A stretch of DNA of 37,186 nt from a virus. The stretch lies in the IMG/VR virus record IMGVR_UViG_3300025326_000120, positions 1 through 37,186 of that record. The stretch is one strand, 5' to 3'. The notes below the pieces were generated by a model that saw only the letters and a program-made list of their open reading frames with translations, ran no database searches and was not told the DNA's origin. This document shows, piece after piece, positions 5,125 through 23,628 of this stretch; within the stretch, counting starts at the first letter, position 1, and each line of letters begins with the position of its first letter. The translations under genes and the position numbers were made by a program.

Positions 5125-6327
5125 TCACCGTCGCTTACCCTCACCGACGCCCTTGTAGTTGATGAACTGGTTGAGGACGGCGACGGTTTTGACAAGCGGC
5201 GCGGCGTCCTTCATCACGACTTCGATCGGCTTGTATGCGCTCGGCGCTTCGTCGATCAACTCGGCCGCGTTCCGATCCTGCCATGTCCGGCCGGTCATCT
5301 GTGCCTTGAAGTCGTCAACCGAGAGTGTTCGCCGTGCCTGTCCGCGTGACAGCAACCGGCCTGAGCCATGTGGCGCGGATTCGTAGGCGTCCTCGTTCCC
5401 AAGCCCGGTGACGATGTGGGTCTGCGTCCCCATTGAGCCGGGGATGATGCCGTGATCGCTGACGCCGGCCGCTATGGCTCCCTTGCGGGCCAGCAGCAGA
5501 GCGCCGGTCGCCTCGGCGTAGTTGTGGTGACAGTGGACGCGGCGGGCCTCGACGAATGAGGACTCGGCGCGCAGTGCGTCCAGCATCCGCGCCATCATCG
5601 CTTCTCGCTGGCCCCACGCGTACTGCTGGGCGTAGGTCATCTCCGCGATGTACCACTCGCTGTCAGGCGCGCCGCTCGGCAAGTAGGCCAGGTCGGGGTG
5701 CTCGATCTTCAAGCCCTCTCGCTCACAGATCGCCCGCGCCGTCGCGCAGTAGGATTCGGCAATCGCCATCCCGAGCGCACGGCTGCCGGAGTGGACGATG
5801 GCCCATGTCACACCCTGCTCGTCTTCCGCAAACTCAGCGAAGTGATTCCCGGAGCCGAGCGTCCCAAACTGCACGGCTGAAATCTCTTTCAGTCCATGTC
5901 CGTTCTTCGTCGTCGTGGTGCGTCCTATCGGGCCGAACTTGACGAAGAACGCGGCGGCATCCGCGGTGGGAGCCGGATGATTCTTTCCGACGCCAGATGG
6001 GATCGTGTCCCGCAATCGGCCCAGGATCCGACGGCAGGCGTCCTCAGCGAGAGCGGCACGCGGTAGATCCGTCTGCACGGCCAGCATCCCGCACCCGATG
6101 TCGACGCCAATCGCCGCGGGAATCACGCCGCCCTTCATCCACATTACGGAGCCGACCGTCGCGCCCATCCCGAAGTGACAGTCCGGCATCAGGGCGACGT
6201 GGCCCTTCACGACCGGAGATCGCGATGTCATCTCGGCCTGTTGTCGTGTCAGGTCGTCGATCAGCGAGGCCCACGACATGACGGTGCCGCGGCCGAACTC
6301 GTTCTCGGTCTCGTAAGTGGTGGTCAT
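5125..6327 (-). CDS. rtcB: RtcB-family RNA ligase
   Basis: A 400-residue protein, full length for RtcB. Motifs in order: MPDCHFGMG at 47 to 55, GVDIGCGM at 74 to 81, LGSGNHF at 157 to 163, VHSGSR at 178 to 183, HCHHNYAE at 265 to 272, IPGSMGT at 295 to 301, APHGSGR at 318 to 324 and SAYKPIEVVM at 363 to 372. By family analogy Cys79 and the histidines bind manganese and His320 carries the GMP. RtcB joins a 2',3'-cyclic phosphate or 3'-phosphate to a 5'-OH end, mending RNAs cut by toxins such as anticodon nucleases. The ATG at 6327 has a strong GGGAGG site; an ATG five codons upstream is less well placed. Confidence 0.93.
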   Translation of the reverse strand: MTTTYETENEFGRGTVMSWASLIDDLTRQQAEMTSRSPVVKGHVALMPDCHFGMGATVGSVMWMKGGVIPAAIGVDIGCGMLAVQTDLPRAALAEDACRRILGRLRDTIPSGVGKNHPAPTADAAAFFVKFGPIGRTTTTKNGHGLKEISAVQFGTLGSGNHFAEFAEDEQGVTWAIVHSGSRALGMAIAESYCATARAICEREGLKIEHPDLAYLPSGAPDSEWYIAEMTYAQQYAWGQREAMMARMLDALRAESSFVEARRVHCHHNYAEATGALLLARKGAIAAGVSDHGIIPGSMGTQTHIVTGLGNEDAYESAPHGSGRLLSRGQARRTLSVDDFKAQMTGRTWQDRNAAELIDEAPSAYKPIEVVMKDAAPLVKTVAVLNQFINYKGVGEGKRR

Positions 6328-6665
6328 TGATCCCTCCCCCACCTTGATCCCAAAAGTCCTGCGTCTCGCGCCGCGGCTGGCGAGCCATGGATCGCGTCAT
6401 GGCAAGGTCGGCAGCAGCACACAATATTCGCCTCGTCCACAATCGAGCCGAGCATCGCCCTGGTCTGTCGCTCATGGCAGTCCACGCTCTGCCCCGTGCA
6501 CGCCAGCGAGAACCGCGCCTCGCACCGCGGCCTTTCGGCCAGCAGGCGGCGCACCAGGGGCACGCGCTGCTCGCGGTACAGCTTGGCGACTCGCTTCGAC
6601 CGCGGACGTATCGGGGTCGTCGAGCGCGAGAGGCCGGTGACGCGGCGGAGGGCGGTGCGCTTCAT
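6324..6665 (-). CDS. HNH-type putative nuclease
   Basis: A 113-residue protein starting MKRTALRR at ATG 6665, overlapping the upstream stop. The N-terminal half is strongly basic (RRVTGLSRSTTPIRPRSKRVAK) and suits DNA contact. The C-terminal half has C-x5-ACTG, VDCHERQTRA, IVDEANIVCCCRPCHDAIHGSP, resembling compact phage HNH proteins in which His-Glu, Asn and the CR-x-CHDxIH block form the active site. It precedes RtcB with an ATGA overlap. Activity is inferred from the pattern only. Confidence 0.72.
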   Translation of the reverse strand: MKRTALRRVTGLSRSTTPIRPRSKRVAKLYREQRVPLVRRLLAERPRCEARFSLACTGQSVDCHERQTRAMLGSIVDEANIVCCCRPCHDAIHGSPAAARDAGLLGSRWGRDQ

Positions 6666-16676: not shown

Positions 16677-16846
16677 TCAGCACCCGCGCAGCGCCGCGCC
16701 ATGCGCCGCATCACTTCGCGATGCTACGCCCCGCAACGCAACGTTTCTATTTCAAAGCGATGACCGCCGCGTCGCTGCGCACCACGTCGCCGTGCAGCGC
16801 CCCGCTACGCAACGCAACGTTCTAAAGCCCTAACAGGAGGAGTCCA
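16677..16846. repeat. Non-coding interval with 14-base direct repeats
   Basis: No gene is supported here. The sequence CGCAACGCAACGTT occurs at 16732 to 16745 and again at 16808 to 16821, each preceded by a CCCCGC-type stretch, so the wider match is about 20 bases with differences. The interval ends with an AGGAGGAG ribosome-binding site for the next gene. It may hold a packaging or regulatory signal. Confidence 0.6.
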
Positions 16847-17422
16847 GTGAGATCAGCCGTATGTTCCCTGCGTTCACTTGACCGATATAGCCAGAGCGCG
16901 CCGATTCTGGAGGTCAAGAAAAACAGCGAGACGCACGATCAGTTCGACGAACGCACGTGGCGTCTCCACGCTCATCTCAACCCGGACGATAGCGGAACGC
17001 TTTGTATCCCCGCGACTGCGTTCTCGAACTGCATCAAAACTGCCGCGCTGAAGCTCGGCAAGAAAGTCAAGGGCCGTGGGGCCGCTACGTACGGCAAATT
17101 CTTCCAAGGCGGCGTGATGGTCACGGACCCACTGCCGCTGCCCAAGTACCGCCGTGAGACGGTGACGGGCGAGAAGGTCTACGTTCATGCCAACCCATCG
17201 AAGGGTGAACGGGCAGGCCGTGTCTGGCGTACGTATCCCAAGATCGACGCGTGGTCGGGCGATGTCACGTTCTTGGTGCTGGATCAGGTCATTACGGAAG
17301 AGGTGTTCCGTGAAACGCTCATCTACGCGGGGCAGGTTATCGGGATAGGACGCTTCCGACCGGAGAACCGCGGCTACTACGGCCGGTTCGCGCTGGAACG
17401 CATGGTGTGGACGGACGAATGA
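16847..17422 (+). CDS. Conserved phage protein of unknown function (possible RAMP-like fold)
   Basis: A 191-residue protein from GTG 16847 with AGGAGGAG upstream. It has LRSLDRYSQSAPILEVKKNSETHDQFDERTW at the N-terminus, a LCIPATAFSNCIKTAALKLG helix near residue 52, GKKVKGRGAATYGKFFQGG near 70, TVTGEKVYVHANPSKGERAGRVWRTYP in the middle, and a glycine-rich end, GQVIGIGRFRPENRGYYGRFAL. I recall similar proteins in diverse phages without assigned function. The IP-x-x-x-F helix and G-rich C-terminus loosely recall RAMP proteins, but this is only an impression. It ends in an ATGA overlap with the large terminase. Confidence 0.65.
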   Translation: MRSAVCSLRSLDRYSQSAPILEVKKNSETHDQFDERTWRLHAHLNPDDSGTLCIPATAFSNCIKTAALKLGKKVKGRGAATYGKFFQGGVMVTDPLPLPKYRRETVTGEKVYVHANPSKGERAGRVWRTYPKIDAWSGDVTFLVLDQVITEEVFRETLIYAGQVIGIGRFRPENRGYYGRFALERMVWTDE

Positions 17423-18735
17423 CCGCCTCCGTCGAGTACCAGGTCCGGCTGCGCTCCCTGCAAGGCCATCCCAAGCAGGCAGCATTCGTGGCCTCACCGG
17501 CCAAGCGCAGGATTGCCCGTGCTGGACGTCGCGGCGGTAAGACGGTCGGGGCCGCGCAGATCGCGCTCAAATGGTTCCTCGCCGGCCGAAGGGTCCTGTA
17601 CGCCACCCCGACGCAGGATCAACTCGACGCCTTCTGGTGGGAGGTCAAACGTGCGCTCGGCGACGTGATAGACGCCGGGGTGTACTACAAGAACGAGACC
17701 ATGCACTTCATCGAAGTGCCAGGGACCAAGAACCGCATCCGGGCAAAAACAGCCTGGAACGCCGACACCTTGAGGGGCGACTACGCGGATGGGCTGATCC
17801 TCGATGAGTTCCACCTGATCGACGAGACGGCGTGGTCCGAGGTCGGCGCGCCCATGCTGATGGATAACAACGGGGATGCGGTGTTCATTTACACCCCTCC
17901 CTCGATGCGGTCGAGGTCGGTCACCAAGGCCCGCGACCCTCTCCATGCGCCGAAGCTGTTCAAGCACGCGAATGGCGACCACCGCTCGTGTCAGCATCCG
18001 GCCAGTGAACAGGACGAGGGCCGGTGGAGCGCCCACCACTGGACTTCAAAGGACAACCCGCACGTCACTGAGGAGGCGCTGGCCGAGACGAGGCGGGACA
18101 TGACCGAGTTGGCGTGGCGGCAGGAGATCGAGGCAGAGGACATAGAGAACGTACCCGGCGCGCTGTGGAAGCCAGAGATGATCATCTACGGAGAGCCGCC
18201 ACACGCCATCAACGCGAACGGCAAGGATATCGGCCGCGATCTGATATCGGTCGCGGTCAGCGTGGACCCGTCCGGTGGAGGGCCGCGGTCGGATGAGGTC
18301 GGGATCGTGGTCAGCGCTCGCGGCGTGGATGATCGGGGTTATGTGCTCGCCGACAGGTCGATTCAGGGCGTCTTGACGGACGTTTGGGCGCAACTTGCGA
18401 TCGGTGCCTACTACGAGTTCAACGGGCACAGGCTCATTGCCGAGGTTAACTACGGTGGCGACATGGTCCGAGACGTAATCCAGACGCGTGCCCCTGGGTT
18501 GCCGGTTGACGTCGTTCATGCGACGCACGGCAAACAGGTCCGGGCCGAGCCTGTCGCGGCGCTCTATGAACAGGGGCGCGTCTCGCACGTGCAGCAGTTC
18601 CCGGAGCTTGAGCAACAGCTATGCCAGTGGGTACCAGGGCCGGGAAGTAAATCGCCTGGTCGCCTCGACGCGCTCGTGTGGGGGATGACGGAGCTGATGG
18701 TGACCGGGGGGTCGCCGAACGTGAGGTGGCTGTGA
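17419..18735 (+). CDS. terL: Terminase large subunit
   Basis: A 438-residue motor protein. The ATPase has Walker A ARAGRRGGKTVGA at about 33 to 45, a TPTQ segment at 63 to 66, Walker B GLILDEFHLID at about 125 to 135, and YTPPS near 160. The nuclease half has VSVDPSGGG with Asp283, AEVNYGGDMV with Glu342, and RLDALVWGMTEL with Asp417, the three acids expected in the RNase H-like nuclease. It packages DNA into the prohead and cuts it. ATG 17419 overlaps the upstream stop (ATGA); its own TGA shares one base with the next ATG. Confidence 0.93.
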   Translation: MTASVEYQVRLRSLQGHPKQAAFVASPAKRRIARAGRRGGKTVGAAQIALKWFLAGRRVLYATPTQDQLDAFWWEVKRALGDVIDAGVYYKNETMHFIEVPGTKNRIRAKTAWNADTLRGDYADGLILDEFHLIDETAWSEVGAPMLMDNNGDAVFIYTPPSMRSRSVTKARDPLHAPKLFKHANGDHRSCQHPASEQDEGRWSAHHWTSKDNPHVTEEALAETRRDMTELAWRQEIEAEDIENVPGALWKPEMIIYGEPPHAINANGKDIGRDLISVAVSVDPSGGGPRSDEVGIVVSARGVDDRGYVLADRSIQGVLTDVWAQLAIGAYYEFNGHRLIAEVNYGGDMVRDVIQTRAPGLPVDVVHATHGKQVRAEPVAALYEQGRVSHVQQFPELEQQLCQWVPGPGSKSPGRLDALVWGMTELMVTGGSPNVRWL

Positions 18736-19403
18736 TGGCAAAGCGCATTCCTGAATGCCGCCTATGCGGTCACGCTCACTGGTCGTACCAGCCGCACAAG
18801 CTGATCGGCGGGCCGGAGCCGTCGAAGGCGGTCCGGGAACTGGCCGCGGTAGCTCAACGGTCAGAGCGTCGCTCTTATAAAGCGAAGGTCGACGGTTCGA
18901 CTCCGTCCCGCGGCACCATTGAAACCGTCGAAGTGCCGACGACGGTTGATGACGTGCGTCGAATGGTCCGCGAGATCAACCGGGATATCGAGAGTGCCGG
19001 GAAGCGTCTCGTGGCGATCAAGGATTCGGACCTGTGGCGTGAGTTCGGGTATGCGACGTGGGAATCGTTCGTCGAGGGAGAGTTTCCGTTCACGAGGCGC
19101 AGGGCGAATCAGTTGGTCGACCACGAGCGGTTTATGGCCGCGATACCGGGACCTGTCACGTCTGAGCCAGATACAAACGGGAACCATGGTTCCCACCTTA
19201 CTGAGCGCGAGACGCGAGCCATTAGAAACGATCCCGCGAAAGTCGCCAGGGTCAGGCGCTCGGTGGCTCAGGGCGTGGCTCCCGCCGAAGCGATCAAGCG
19301 CGCCACGTCGAGGACCAAGGATTCTGCGACCGGCGCGCCGTGCGAGCACCCGCGGACCGTGGCTGTCGTCGTCTGCGCCGACTGCGGCAGGAGGCTCGAA
19401 TAA
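18735..19403 (+). CDS. Hypothetical DNA-binding-like protein with a tRNA gene inside its frame
   Basis: An open frame of 222 codons. Residues 1 to 35 hold CRLCGHAH, a zinc-knuckle-like start. Codons 37 to 61 translate the tRNA-Ile gene and are unlikely to be a natural domain. After that comes VDDVRRMVREINRDIESAGKRLVAIKD, WREFGYATWESFVEGEFPFTRRRANQLVDHERFM, a pattern seen in plasmid and phage HTH proteins, and a C-terminal CEHPRTVAVVVCADCG zinc ribbon. Either one frame spans the tRNA or two genes flank it; GTG 18933 and ATG 18963 are possible second starts without clear ribosome-binding sites. Confidence 0.6.
   Translation: MAKRIPECRLCGHAHWSYQPHKLIGGPEPSKAVRELAAVAQRSERRSYKAKVDGSTPSRGTIETVEVPTTVDDVRRMVREINRDIESAGKRLVAIKDSDLWREFGYATWESFVEGEFPFTRRRANQLVDHERFMAAIPGPVTSEPDTNGNHGSHLTERETRAIRNDPAKVARVRRSVAQGVAPAEAIKRATSRTKDSATGAPCEHPRTVAVVVCADCGRRLE
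18843..18918 (+). tRNA. tRNA-Ile (anticodon UAU)
   Basis: A complete cloverleaf. Acceptor GCCGCGG (18843 to 18849) pairs perfectly with CCGCGGC (18908 to 18914); D arm GCTC/GAGC; anticodon stem TCGCT/AGCGA around loop CTTATAA (18874 to 18880) with anticodon TAT at 18876 to 18878; T arm GACGG-TTCGACT-CCGTC; discriminator A and an encoded CCA (18916 to 18918). It would read the AUA isoleucine codon, rare in a GC-rich genome. It lies inside an open reading frame. Confidence 0.92.
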
Positions 19404-19404
19404 G

Positions 19405-19662
19405 GTGGTCAAACGAGCGATCACTTGCCGGTATTGTGGTCTGCAGACTTGGCAAGGCGATCACGCCTGCGACAGGCTCCCCGATCTCCGGGCCATCACG
19501 AAGGGATTACGCAACCGGCCCGTAGGTCCGATGCGTACAGACTTGCCGCCGCCTACGTTGCCGCCAGGGGCGATTGATCACCGTTACGAGTCCGATGACG
19601 CGAACGCCGAGACGGGGTGCGAGCACCTGTTCCGGTGCGTCAGGTGCGGGGCCGAGCAGTGA
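19405..19662 (+). CDS. Double zinc-ribbon hypothetical protein
   Basis: An 85-residue protein from GTG 19405 with AGGAGG about 12 bases upstream. The N-terminus has CRYCGLQTWQGDHAC and the C-terminus CEHLFRCVRCG, two metal-binding groups separated by a Pro-rich stretch (DLPPPTLPPGAIDHRYESDD). The C-terminal C-x-H...C-x-x-C-G unit resembles the end of the preceding protein. Function unknown. Confidence 0.66.
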   Translation: MVKRAITCRYCGLQTWQGDHACDRLPDLRAITKGLRNRPVGPMRTDLPPPTLPPGAIDHRYESDDANAETGCEHLFRCVRCGAEQ

Positions 19663-19859
19663 CGTCGCTGCTCGCTCGCATCAAGCGCCATCTACCGACG
19701 CTCAGGCGTCACCTGCCGACGATAATCGAGGTCGTCGGTATCATTTCGGTGTGCGCCGGGGTGCTGTGGTACTCGATCCCGGCAGGCCTGATCGTGTCGG
19801 GACTCGTCGCGGTGGTGGTAGCGCAGGGGATAGGCAGGCTGCCGCGCGATGAACTGTGA
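19659..19859 (+). CDS. Small membrane protein with two predicted helices
   Basis: A 66-residue protein from GTG 19659 (GTGA overlap). A basic N-terminus (RIKRHLPTLRRHLPT) leads to IIEVVGIISVCAGVLWYSI and a second hydrophobic stretch, AGLIVSGLVAVVVAQG, likely a two-helix membrane hairpin with the basic end in the cytoplasm. Size and layout would suit a holin-like protein, but no lysis gene is next to it, so this is not claimed. Confidence 0.68.
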   Translation: MTSLLARIKRHLPTLRRHLPTIIEVVGIISVCAGVLWYSIPAGLIVSGLVAVVVAQGIGRLPRDEL

Positions 19860-20091
19860 ACGATGCGGTCATGAGTTTCAGTGGTTCGAAATCGGCCGCA
19901 AGACCGCGACCGGCGTCGTGCATAACGATCCGCGTGAAGGCATCTGTCCGCCCAAGCCCTGTCTGCGCTGCCGAAGGCCGAGAATGTCACTCGTGCACGC
20001 TACGTTTGCGGGCGTCATGATTGAGGCGCGGGTGAGTGGCGTGAGTATCGAGACGAGGGAGCATCCGTATGAGCCCGACACCGGGAACTGA
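19849..20091 (+). CDS. Zinc-ribbon hypothetical protein
   Basis: An 80-residue protein starting MNCERCGHEFQWFE, with CERC at 3 to 6 and a second group C-x4-CLRCRR near residues 33 to 42, a classic zinc ribbon. The second half is beta-like (VHATFAGVMIEARVSGVSIETREH). ATG 19849 overlaps the end of the membrane protein. It may bind nucleic acid or a virion partner. Confidence 0.66.
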   Translation: MNCERCGHEFQWFEIGRKTATGVVHNDPREGICPPKPCLRCRRPRMSLVHATFAGVMIEARVSGVSIETREHPYEPDTGN

Positions 20092-20464
20092 GGACCGGCC
20101 GCTCGGCTGCGGACGGGACATCCAGGACGAGCAGGATTGCGGCTGCCACGTCGACGTCTCTGGTCCGGGCTGCAACGACCCGGAGTGCTGCGACCAACAC
20201 GACTTCAGGGCCAGCATCCATCGCTGTGAGGCTCACGAGGCCATACACGAGCCGATCCGGCGTGTGGCCGAGGCATTCGCCAGCGCGAAGCTCTTGGAAG
20301 CCGAGAAGTACGTCGAGATGCAACTCTCGATCCTCGCCGCCGACCGCCTATCCGAAGGCGTGCGGCAAGTCGTTGAGCAGGACTTCAAGGTGCCGATGAT
20401 GACGCCAGACGAGTATTTGCGCGCCCTGCGGGACATGTATCGCAGCACGAGGGTAAACCGATGA
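20069..20464 (+). CDS. Cys-rich hypothetical protein
   Basis: A 131-residue protein starting MSPTPGTEDRPLGCGRD. Its first half has many cysteines and histidines (CGC-H, C-x4-ECCDQH, H-RCEAHEAIHE), likely binding metal. The second half is helical (PIRRVAEAFASAKLLEAEKYVEMQLSILAADRLSEGVRQVVEQDF) and ends with TPDEYLRALRDMYR. It ends four bases inside the portal gene (ATGA), so translation is coupled to the portal. Confidence 0.66.
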   Translation: MSPTPGTEDRPLGCGRDIQDEQDCGCHVDVSGPGCNDPECCDQHDFRASIHRCEAHEAIHEPIRRVAEAFASAKLLEAEKYVEMQLSILAADRLSEGVRQVVEQDFKVPMMTPDEYLRALRDMYRSTRVNR

Positions 20465-22587
20465 CGCTCCTGAGTAGGGCAATAACCTCGCTCGTCGTTC
20501 GCGCTCCGACCATCAGCCGAGTTCCGATGACCACGAACGCGGGCGGCTACGCGTTCGGGGTGGCGGGCGCGGTCGACCACGTCGCGGAGATGATGACCTA
20601 CTCGCAGGTCGGCTGGCTGTTCGCGGTCGTCTCCCGGATCGCCTCCACGGTCGCGGCCGTCGAGTGGAAGCTTTATCGGAAGGCACGCGAGCGCGTCGAG
20701 ATCGAGGCGCATCCGGCCCTCAGTCTGTGGCGGGATGCCTCTCCGTTCCTGACCGGGCACCAGTTTATCGAAGGCTTCCAGCAGCACGAGGAGTTGACCG
20801 GCGAGGCGTGGCTCCTGGTGCTCAAGAACCGCATGGGCCTGCCGGTGGAACTGATGGCCTTGCGGCCCGATCGGGTGGAGCCGATCCCCCACCCGACCGA
20901 GTTCATCTCGGGCTACTGGTACAAGATCGGCGGGCAGAAGTTCATGCTGGCCCCCGACGAGATAGTCCCGATCCTCATGCCGAACCCCATGAACCCCTAC
21001 CGGGGCGCCGGTCCGGTGCAGGCGTTACTGCCTGAGCTCGACGCCGAGCACATGAGCGTCCTGTGGTCGAGGGCGTTCTTCCGCAACTCGGCGAGACCAG
21101 GCGGAATCGTCGAGGTCGACCGCACACTCTCGGACCCCGAGTTCGAGCGGATGCGGGCGCACTGGAACGCCCAGCACTCCGGGATCTCGAACGCGCACCG
21201 CGTCGCGTTCCTGGAGCGCGCGAAGTGGGTCGATGTCTCGATGAGTCAGCGGGACATGCAATATGAACAGTTGAGAAAGTTGACCCGTGACAACATCCTC
21301 GGCGCGTACGGGGTACCCCTGTCGGTCATGGGGATCACGGAGTCAGTGAACCGGGCCAATGCCGAGGCGGGAGATGTGATGTTCGCCCGCTGGGTGATCA
21401 AGCCCAGGCTGATCAGGATTCGCGCTGCGCTCAACGAACGGCTGCTGCCGATGTTCGGCGAGGGCATGGAGTTCGACTTCGTGGACCCGGTGCCGGAGGA
21501 TCATGCGGCGTTGCTCCTGGAGGCCACCCAGGGCTACAGCGGGGGGCTGCTCACGCTGAACGAGGGACGCCGGCGCCTGGGCGAGGCCGCGGTTCCGGAC
21601 GGCGAGAAGTTCAAACCCGCCCCGGTCTCGCCATTCGCGCTGTCGGCCCGTACGCGCTCGTTCGCGCTGGAGATGGGCGATGACAACCTGCTCACGACTC
21701 CGGTACAGCGCGCCGAGGCCGTGATGCGAGCGGGATGGACGAAACGCCTTGGAGACGAGGCTGACGCGATCGCGGCGTTCATGGAGCAGTTCAAGGCGGT
21801 CAGGTACTACAGGGCTGCCGTCGTCAACGAAACAGAAGTGGTCAAGATCGAAGTCTCGGACCTCGCGGGCTACGACTGGGACTGGTGGACCCGGTACGGC
21901 GCGGCCGTCATCGACGAACTGACGCTGGTGGTCACGCAGGCGCTCATCATGGACTTCCCGGACCTGGCCGTGGGGGAAGTGCAGCGGATCGCCGCCGCGT
22001 ACTCACGGGAACGCGGGGCCGCGCTCCTGCAGGTGACCGGCGACGTGAACGTGGTCGCCCAGACGCGCGCACGAGTCGGGGAGTTGGTCGCGCAGACGAT
22101 AGAGCGGGGCGACTCGCTCAAGACGCTCGAAAAGAACCTGCGAGAGGACTTCATGTTCAGCCGTGATCGTGCGTCACGCGTCGCTCGCACTGAGACGGCT
22201 ACAGGACTCGGACAGGGCCAGAAGCAGGCCGCGCAGTCGATGGGCCGCGACGAGAAGCACTGGCGCACCCAGGGCGCGGCCGATCCGAGGGTGGACGAGA
22301 CGTGCCTGGCGAACGAGGCGCAGGGCTGGGTCGAGATCGGCAGCCTGTTCGTGTCGGGCCACGACACGGTTCCCGCGCATCCGAACTGTATGTGCAAGAC
22401 GGATTACCGCACGAGGGAGCTTCACGAGGAATCGGCCACGCCTCGCCTTACCCGCGAGGGCCGGTGCCCGCAGTGCTCGAAGCTCCTGTTACGGGACGTC
22501 TCGGACGCCACGGGGTGGTGCGGGAAGTGCCGCGTGGCGGTGCGGTTCACGGCTGGTGTGGCGAAGGTGCTGACGCCTGCCGTTTGA
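20461..22587 (+). CDS. Portal protein fused to MuF-like head morphogenesis domain and zinc ribbon
   Basis: A 708-residue protein. Residues about 40 to 380 match HK97-type portals: SQVGWLFAVVSRIASTVAAVEWKLYRK, ELTGEAWLLVLKN, PNPMNPYRGAGPVQAL, FRNSARPGGIVEV and LRKLTRDNILGAYGVPLSVMGI, ending with the VPEDHAALLLEATQGYSGGLLTLNEGR segment. Residues about 400 to 650 match the MuF/SPP1 gp7-type domain: SRVARTETATGLGQGQKQAAQ near 573, VDETCLANEAQGWVEIGSLF and VPAHPNCMCKTDYR near 640. The end adds CPQC-x16-CGKC (about 669 to 688), a zinc ribbon. The portal is the DNA entry ring of the head. Confidence 0.9.
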   Translation: MTLLSRAITSLVVRAPTISRVPMTTNAGGYAFGVAGAVDHVAEMMTYSQVGWLFAVVSRIASTVAAVEWKLYRKARERVEIEAHPALSLWRDASPFLTGHQFIEGFQQHEELTGEAWLLVLKNRMGLPVELMALRPDRVEPIPHPTEFISGYWYKIGGQKFMLAPDEIVPILMPNPMNPYRGAGPVQALLPELDAEHMSVLWSRAFFRNSARPGGIVEVDRTLSDPEFERMRAHWNAQHSGISNAHRVAFLERAKWVDVSMSQRDMQYEQLRKLTRDNILGAYGVPLSVMGITESVNRANAEAGDVMFARWVIKPRLIRIRAALNERLLPMFGEGMEFDFVDPVPEDHAALLLEATQGYSGGLLTLNEGRRRLGEAAVPDGEKFKPAPVSPFALSARTRSFALEMGDDNLLTTPVQRAEAVMRAGWTKRLGDEADAIAAFMEQFKAVRYYRAAVVNETEVVKIEVSDLAGYDWDWWTRYGAAVIDELTLVVTQALIMDFPDLAVGEVQRIAAAYSRERGAALLQVTGDVNVVAQTRARVGELVAQTIERGDSLKTLEKNLREDFMFSRDRASRVARTETATGLGQGQKQAAQSMGRDEKHWRTQGAADPRVDETCLANEAQGWVEIGSLFVSGHDTVPAHPNCMCKTDYRTRELHEESATPRLTREGRCPQCSKLLLRDVSDATGWCGKCRVAVRFTAGVAKVLTPAV

Positions 22588-22614
22588 CAGTAACCCCCGG
22601 TTGTGCATTAGAGT
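22584..22614 (+). promoter_or_regulatory. Candidate promoter for the tRNA-Met
   Basis: A perfect -35 TTGACA (22584 to 22589) overlaps the portal stop codon; TTAGAG (18-base spacer) or TAGAGT (22609 to 22614, 19-base spacer) serves as -10. Transcription would start near 22620, about 40 bases before the tRNA. The long spacer lowers certainty. Confidence 0.5.
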
Positions 22615-22661
22615 TGTTGCCGACGGAAAGCGCCGCGGGTAGCCCGAGCGCACCGTCATAT

Positions 22662-22737
22662 TCCGGGGTGGAGCAGTGGTCGGCTCGCGACGCTCATAAC
22701 GTCGAGGTCACAGGTTCGAATCCTGTCTCCGGGACCA
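22662..22737 (+). tRNA. tRNA-Met (anticodon CAU)
   Basis: Acceptor TCCGGGG (22662 to 22668) pairs with CTCCGGG (22727 to 22733), with a U-G at the first pair and a G-U at the sixth. D arm GAGC/GCTC, anticodon stem CGACG/CGTCG, loop CTCATAA (22693 to 22699) with anticodon CAT at 22695 to 22697, T arm ACAGG-TTCGAAT-CCTGT, then A and an encoded CCA. The stem lacks the three consecutive G-C pairs of typical initiators, so an elongator Met or lysidine-modified Ile tRNA is likely. Confidence 0.9.
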
Positions 22738-22793
22738 AGATTCACATAGGGCCGACAACCGAATAGACGGCCAGAGCGCCTAGAGCGCCACAG

Positions 22794-22837
22794 CGCCCGA
22801 CGAACCTCTTAGAACGAGTCGTCGGGCGTTTTGTTTT
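22794..22837 (+). terminator. Rho-independent terminator
   Basis: Perfect 10-base arms CGCCCGACGA (22794 to 22803) and TCGTCGGGCG (22819 to 22828) around a 15-base loop, followed by TTTTGTTTT. It ends the tRNA-Met transcript and lies only 11 bases before the protease start codon. Confidence 0.88.
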
Positions 22838-22848
22838 GCGGGGGAAAC

Positions 22849-23628
22849 GTGATCCGACGCAAGTTGATCCGGTCCGAGGTCAAGGTGCTCGACGCCGCGT
22901 CTGGGCGCGTCGAGGCCGTTGTGTCGACCGAATCCACCGACCGGCAAGGCGACATCATCCGGCAGGACGGCTGGGATATGAAGTCGTTCATGCTCCACCC
23001 CGTCCTCCTCGCATCACATGACTACTACGACCTCCGCTCGCAGATCGGCGAGTGGGAGGAGATGGCCGTCAAGGGCCGCAAGCTCGTTGGCACCGCCCGC
23101 TACTACGTGGGCGAGGGGAACGAGCAGGCCGACTGGGGTTTTAAGCTCGCCTCCAAGGGCCGCGCCGCGTTCTCGGTCGGCTTCATCCCCGACATGGACA
23201 AGGCCAAGCGGATCGAGGGCGACGAGTCTGACGGCGACTTCTGGGGCCATTACGAGTTCAACGGACAGGAGCTTCTGGAAGTCTCCCATGTGACCATCCC
23301 GGCCAACGCGGACGCCTTGCAGGTGATCCGTTCGGCCAAGGGCCTGCACCCGGCCATCGCCGAGATCGTGGACGAGGCGCTGAAGGATCTGAAGATTCCG
23401 GCCTCGATCACGCTCGCAAACTCATTTGACAGCCAGACCGAGGCGTTACTGGACGCCATTGCGGAGCGTATTTCGGCGACGCTCGGCAAAAACGGCCTGG
23501 CCTCACCTCCCTTGGGGTCCCCGGCTCCGGCTGTCAGGGCGCGGCCGGACGCCGGGGATTCTCCGAACACACCGAACCGCGTAGTTGACGAGGCTATCGA
23601 CCTCGTGAAGGAGTTTTGGCTGCCATGA
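22849..23628 (+). CDS. Prohead protease (HK97 family)
   Basis: A 259-residue protein from GTG 22849, with a GGGGG site in the six to eleven bases before it; a TTG six codons earlier would fall inside the terminator's T tract and is rejected. It begins VIRRKLIRSEVKVLDAASGRVEAVVSTESTDRQGD, has LLASHDYYD with candidate catalytic His57, then AAFSVGFIPD with candidate Ser109 and ELLEVSHVTIPANADAL with a Glu that may complete the site, matching U35/S78-type proteases. The C-terminal third (about 170 to 259) is a linker with Pro-rich NGLASPPLGSPAPAVR. It matures the capsid protein encoded next, which overlaps it by four bases. Confidence 0.92.
   Translation: MIRRKLIRSEVKVLDAASGRVEAVVSTESTDRQGDIIRQDGWDMKSFMLHPVLLASHDYYDLRSQIGEWEEMAVKGRKLVGTARYYVGEGNEQADWGFKLASKGRAAFSVGFIPDMDKAKRIEGDESDGDFWGHYEFNGQELLEVSHVTIPANADALQVIRSAKGLHPAIAEIVDEALKDLKIPASITLANSFDSQTEALLDAIAERISATLGKNGLASPPLGSPAPAVRARPDAGDSPNTPNRVVDEAIDLVKEFWLP

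Follow-up and report, generated by a model that had tools for sequence, protein, structure and literature searches.

In Alphaproteobacteria, bioinformatic prediction has placed selC, the gene for tRNA-Sec, within selB (Mukai 2021, PMC8124441). The open frame is kept across species, processing would yield a stop-less mRNA, and protein and tRNA have been proposed as alternative products (PMC8124441). A phage example is the tRNA-Lys(TTT) of mycobacteriophage Fionnbharth, which overlaps gene 37, has its own tested promoter and has a function shown in lysogeny (PMC10865867). In mitochondria of Armadillidium vulgare, as the case is cited in PMC8124441, trnK lies fully inside the coding region of cox1 in direct orientation, and exclusive fates were proposed. 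Here we describe a nested locus that an uncultured tailed phage carries between its terminase and portal genes. Coordinates refer to the whole stretch of DNA that was analysed (the window, 37,186 nucleotides). The tRNA, the frame around it and the flanking genes are as follows.

18843..18918, plus strand: tRNA-Ile(UAU) gene with encoded CCA, called by ARAGORN and the Rfam tRNA model; as protein AAVAQRSERRSYKAKVDGSTPSRGT
18735..19403, plus strand: open reading frame (ORF) of 222 codons through tRNA-Ile, stop-free from ATG 18735 to TAA 19403; open in the distant relative L004 too
17407..18735, plus strand: large terminase gene, directly upstream and presumably on the same transcript (Terminase_6C, E 3e-15)
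20461..22587, plus strand: portal / Mu-F-like gene, downstream (Phage_portal, E 2.2e-62)

The initial annotation had described a cloverleaf with encoded CCA at 18843-18918, and both ARAGORN and Rfam bear this out. The Rfam tRNA model scores 76.1 bits there against a cut-off of 29 (E 4.6e-15, 0 non-standard pairs), and the segment has the standard cloverleaf stems, anticodon TAT and CCA of a bacterial-type tRNA. The frame from ATG 18735, likewise reported as running through the tRNA without a stop for 222 codons, was recovered as described; GTG 18732, which overlaps the terminase stop, is an alternative start. As in selB/selC, the whole tRNA lies on the sense strand within a stop-free frame. 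One of the three frames of tRNA-Ile is free of stops and the ORF uses exactly that one, in which the tRNA becomes a 25-residue stretch of the protein. Judged by its sequence, the tRNA is probably functional, and it would be charged and used. AUA, its codon, is rare in the late genes, at 11 of 210 Ile codons, and tRNA-Ile(UAU) would therefore not obviously speed up translation by much.

Window GC is 64.5%, and long spurious frames are common. Chance expectation was estimated by dropping the same tRNA at every window position, and from Markov sequence. An open tRNA preceded by at least 36 open codons arose at 36% of window positions in this placement test; with at least 160 open codons downstream as well, the figure was 3.8%, and the full condition (upstream, tRNA and downstream open) was reached in 0.5% of Markov sequence. 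In a single genome the nested frame is mildly unusual and weak evidence. Because single-genome chance is too high, the weight of the case rests on retention of both tRNA and frame in L004. The 36% figure also favors an alternative in which the head of the ORF is not a gene: a single real tail gene would come after a real tRNA, with the open frame upstream a chance product of high GC. Evidence from the head itself, given below, makes us regard this as quite unlikely.

The locus is present in three IMG/VR records besides the window. Close strains with the locus are L002/L005 and L003/L008, and the distant relative is L004, the one genome on which joint conservation of tRNA and frame was judged. 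Identity between L004 and the window is 66% for terminase, 84% for portal and 55% over 220 residues for the ORF protein. The tRNA-Ile is identical at 76/76 positions, and across -108 to +406, counted from the start of the tRNA, frame 0 alone lacks stops in both genomes. The arrangement is therefore kept in a diverged relative, as it is for selB/selC, with L004 as the one relative concerned. Residues conserved as protein without a tRNA fold had been named by the initial annotation as evidence against nesting; L004 keeps both the protein and the tRNA.

One reading offered earlier, that the tRNA was inserted in one gene and the frame survived by chance, fits worse, given the same tRNA and frame in L004. 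Insertion into one contiguous gene is not supported, as searches of IMG/VR, GTDB genomes, INPHARED phages and PLSDB plasmids yielded no relative that has both halves without the tRNA, and no uninterrupted gene came up in 400 genomes of the phylum to which a Chloroflexi MAG belongs. No relative in these collections shows the gap of about 25 residues that the initial annotation had proposed as a sign of insertion. Terminase relatives at 24-56% identity have no tRNA at the corresponding place, and those read downstream of terminase lack the nested ORF as well. A DNA pattern combining the Zn head with the tRNA box retrieved no further family. Among named phages, Methanosarcina virus MetMV gives the best terminase match (46% over 95%; its annotation is gene transfer agent terminase), and genome relatives at 50-56% come from Dehalococcoidia, Chloroflexi, Pirellulales, Blastocatellia and TA06 MAGs.

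Another tRNA of the window and L004, the free-standing tRNA-Met, shows differences between them at 10/76 positions, with paired changes at 27/43 and 51/63, versus 0/76 for the nested tRNA-Ile (Fisher P 0.0014). This suggests that the nested tRNA-Ile is under more constraint than tRNA-Met, which fits double duty. Near-identity with L004 extends over the block 18807-18918, whereas identity in the flanks, taken in 18-base steps, is 33-72%, with 6/18 bases identical directly after tRNA-Ile. Recent exchange of a short leader-tRNA block could contribute to its identity. Taken further, an exchange of this block between two phage lineages would mean that identity says little on selection and that the frame was kept by recency, and the contrast between block and flanks speaks for it. 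However, site and frame of the tRNA are shared although the sequence to either side has diverged, and a block swap alone would not explain the open frame shared across both diverged flanks. We consider this full form of the explanation very improbable.

The tRNA-Met(CAT) gene itself (22662-22737, in 22584-22837, plus strand) lies between the portal and protease genes. By eye, a TTGACA...TAGAGT-like element precedes it and a GC hairpin with a T run follows it, and L006 largely retains both. The first pair of tRNA-Met is U1-G72, and its identity may accordingly be that of an elongator, an initiator or Ile2.

Three features lie at or before the 5' side of tRNA-Ile.

18723..18728, plus strand: Shine-Dalgarno GAGGTG, 6 nt before ATG 18735; kept in L004
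18735..18842, plus strand: head module, 36 codons with no stop of its own and a C-x2-C-x-H-x-H-W-x4-H putative Zn-binding motif
18813..18836, plus strand: leader hairpin within the head, adjoining the tRNA, in the block nearly identical in L004

By several sequence measures the head looks coding. Its C-x2-C-x-H-x-H-W-x4-H motif is kept in L004, and the CxxC noticed earlier in the N-terminal piece corresponds to C8 and C11, also kept there. The window and L005 differ at 6 sites over 14.7 kb, with five of these in the head (18755, 18759, 18761, 18764 and 18788). In the ORF frame, every one of these five changes is synonymous (P about 0.0003-0.0008); read in the other two frames, the same changes cause 5 and 4 amino-acid changes. 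The clustering of 5/6 window-L005 differences in 34 bases (18755-18788) perhaps reflects a short exchange with an unsampled relative. The Shine-Dalgarno duplex at ATG 18735 is -10.5 kcal/mol against a background median of -4.1, and the head is stop-free in both lineages. A chance frame upstream of the tRNA would agree with the even spread of differences from L004 in codons 1-22 (10/10/10 by codon position, no bias), but it sits poorly with the five of five synonymous changes, the kept C/H/W motif and the strong Shine-Dalgarno kept in L004. Leader codons are unusually unchanged between the window and L004 (joint P 6e-4). The leader hairpin was considered as a special RNA element and rejected: both phages have it, yet 14-19% of synonymous re-codings give an equally good fold.

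The remainder of the ORF forms one module.

18918..19403, plus strand: tail module, with weakly kept codons 62-101, an HTH-like helical domain at about codons 70-136 and a C-terminal Zn-ribbon-like CxH...CxxC

By its pattern of differences from L004 (11/14/27 and 13/13/23 by codon position, a third-position bias), the tail is coding from about codon 102. Codons 62-101, directly after the tRNA, show no third-position bias (21/22/25). In the shared frame, signs of coding appear in the head and again in the tail beyond codon 101, but not in codons 62-101. Because these codons show no measured codon constraint, the link over the 3' junction of the tRNA is supported by the open frame that both genomes share and by the missing head stop. 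The initial annotation had placed an HTH-type and a zinc-ribbon region after the tRNA. The latter holds, as the C-terminal CxH...CxxC is present and kept in L004; the former is plausible from AF2 helices but not proven, with no Pfam match for the ORF protein and no Pfam or PHROG family of note. AF2, with 2 sequences as input and a mean pLDDT of 53, gave confident helices at about residues 70-136 only, and no confident structure for the head, the tRNA-encoded linker or the Zn ribbon. From the helical domain and the Zn-ribbon-like C terminus, the ORF protein is predicted to bind DNA or RNA. Plasmid proteins of Streptomyces and Gloeothece match the domain at about codons 70-136 and carry it near the N terminus after short unrelated heads, without Zn head or tRNA; one genome from the Chloroflexi phylum sample has a matching frame as well. 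Most likely, the tail began as an independent gene that the Zn head joined later through the tRNA. In the window, the next gene after the nested ORF is a small one (19405-19662, plus strand) with Zn-ribbon-like CxxC motifs at both ends; its counterpart is missing there in L004, where a small membrane-protein gene comes next instead.

A second reading in the initial annotation, that the tRNA separates two genes and processing cuts the shared mRNA, fares better in that the tail domain occurs elsewhere without the head. It fares less well at the head, which is stop-less: a ribosome starting there must read through the tRNA into the tail. With two separate genes and the tRNA in the gap between them, the tail would start in frame at GTG 18933, GTG 18954 or ATG 18963 (ATG 2822 in L004), and head ribosomes would run on or be rescued. 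That tail homologues lack the head and have the domain close to their N terminus, that codons 62-101 lack coding bias and that candidate in-frame starts exist after the tRNA all agree with this arrangement. These starts are nevertheless weak beside the head start at -10.5 kcal/mol: Shine-Dalgarno pairing is -1.5 kcal/mol at GTG 18933 and -3.7 at ATG 18963, weaker than the median, and -5.0 at ATG 2822 of L004. Moreover, with no head stop in either lineage, an intact message would give a fused protein anyway. We judge two separate genes to be rather unlikely. A leaderless start of the cut tail at TTG 18919 was rejected, as this codon is out of frame with the ORF and the frame it would open is interrupted in L004.

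The explanation we hold to be probable is that tRNA-Ile(UAU) is nested in a coding frame, with head and tail read through it as one protein and either tRNA or protein produced per transcript. Translation from the strong start at 18735 would give a Zn-finger-like head and an HTH/Zn-ribbon-like tail as one protein, with the tRNA sequence as a 25-residue linker joining the two. On an intact message, ribosomes would pass through the tRNA sequence to make the full protein. Alternatively, RNase P and 3' processing would excise tRNA-Ile from the terminase-to-portal transcript and leave a stop-less head message and a headless tail. For one RNA molecule, whole translation and cutting would be mutually exclusive, and because one molecule cannot do both, one transcript would yield either tRNA or full-length protein. 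The RNA stretch probably serves either as transfer RNA or as message part. We infer that the full-length 222-residue protein is made and that tRNA and protein compete.

A sigma-70-like consensus scan of 16700-23000 returned no site, although this insensitive scan missed the element before tRNA-Met too, and by eye no TTGACA...TAGAGT-like element adjoins tRNA-Ile. Since no promoter-like element was seen beside it, tRNA-Ile most likely comes from cleavage of the terminase-portal transcript. The ends produced by RNase P and 3' processing, 5'-phosphate and 3'-OH, are ones that RtcB does not join, and resealing of the mRNA by RtcB after tRNA removal was rejected on these grounds. The phage, which carries two tRNA genes, encodes an RtcB RNA ligase (5125-6342, minus strand; Pfam RtcB, E 4.5e-87) that perhaps repairs tRNAs cut by host defence.

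More tentatively, the locus may act as a two-way switch, in which tRNA excision silences a DNA-binding-like protein and protein translation blocks tRNA maturation; we regard this as possible rather than probable. If true, tRNA supply and protein expression would be coupled in opposite directions during infection. The locus allows competition of ribosomes and tRNA-processing enzymes for one RNA to be tested as a means of control. It also carries a warning for annotation, as gene callers and tRNA finders that suppress each other's calls will easily miss such loci.

Among described systems, selB/selC shares with the phage locus an entire sense-strand tRNA in a bacterial ORF and the same model of alternative expression (PMC8124441). 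There, selC forms a C-terminal extension that stops at the next gene or close to it, whereas the phage tRNA-Ile is interior, with a conserved domain after it. selC is mostly a multiple of 3 in length (PMC8124441) and encodes tRNA-Sec within the gene for its own partner factor; the phage tRNA is an ordinary tRNA-Ile(UAU), and it has no known functional tie to its ORF. Pfam detects no SelB domain in the phage ORF, which together with the identity of the tRNA sets the locus apart from selB/selC proper. The Fionnbharth tRNA similarly overlaps a phage protein gene and extends its product, and related phages lack that tRNA (PMC10865867). In contrast to tRNA-Ile, which is interior, on the same strand and without a promoter seen, it lies on the opposite strand, covers the gene 3' end only and has its own promoter. 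No integrase, as for lysogeny of the Fionnbharth type, was found among the window proteins scanned, a subset of genes. As far as its citation in PMC8124441 describes it, trnK/cox1 resembles the phage tRNA-Ile in lying fully inside a coding region, in direct orientation and with exclusive fates proposed, but it is a 60-nt tRNA of a compact animal mitochondrial genome rather than of a phage. In searches of open-access literature, no earlier case emerged of a phage ORF with a whole sense-strand tRNA in its interior. The locus would represent a phage tRNA deep inside a coding frame with structure and frame both kept over long divergence. Nested tRNAs as such are known, with selB/selC as the nearest precedent; what is new here is that a complete tRNA lies internally, on the sense strand, in a phage ORF.
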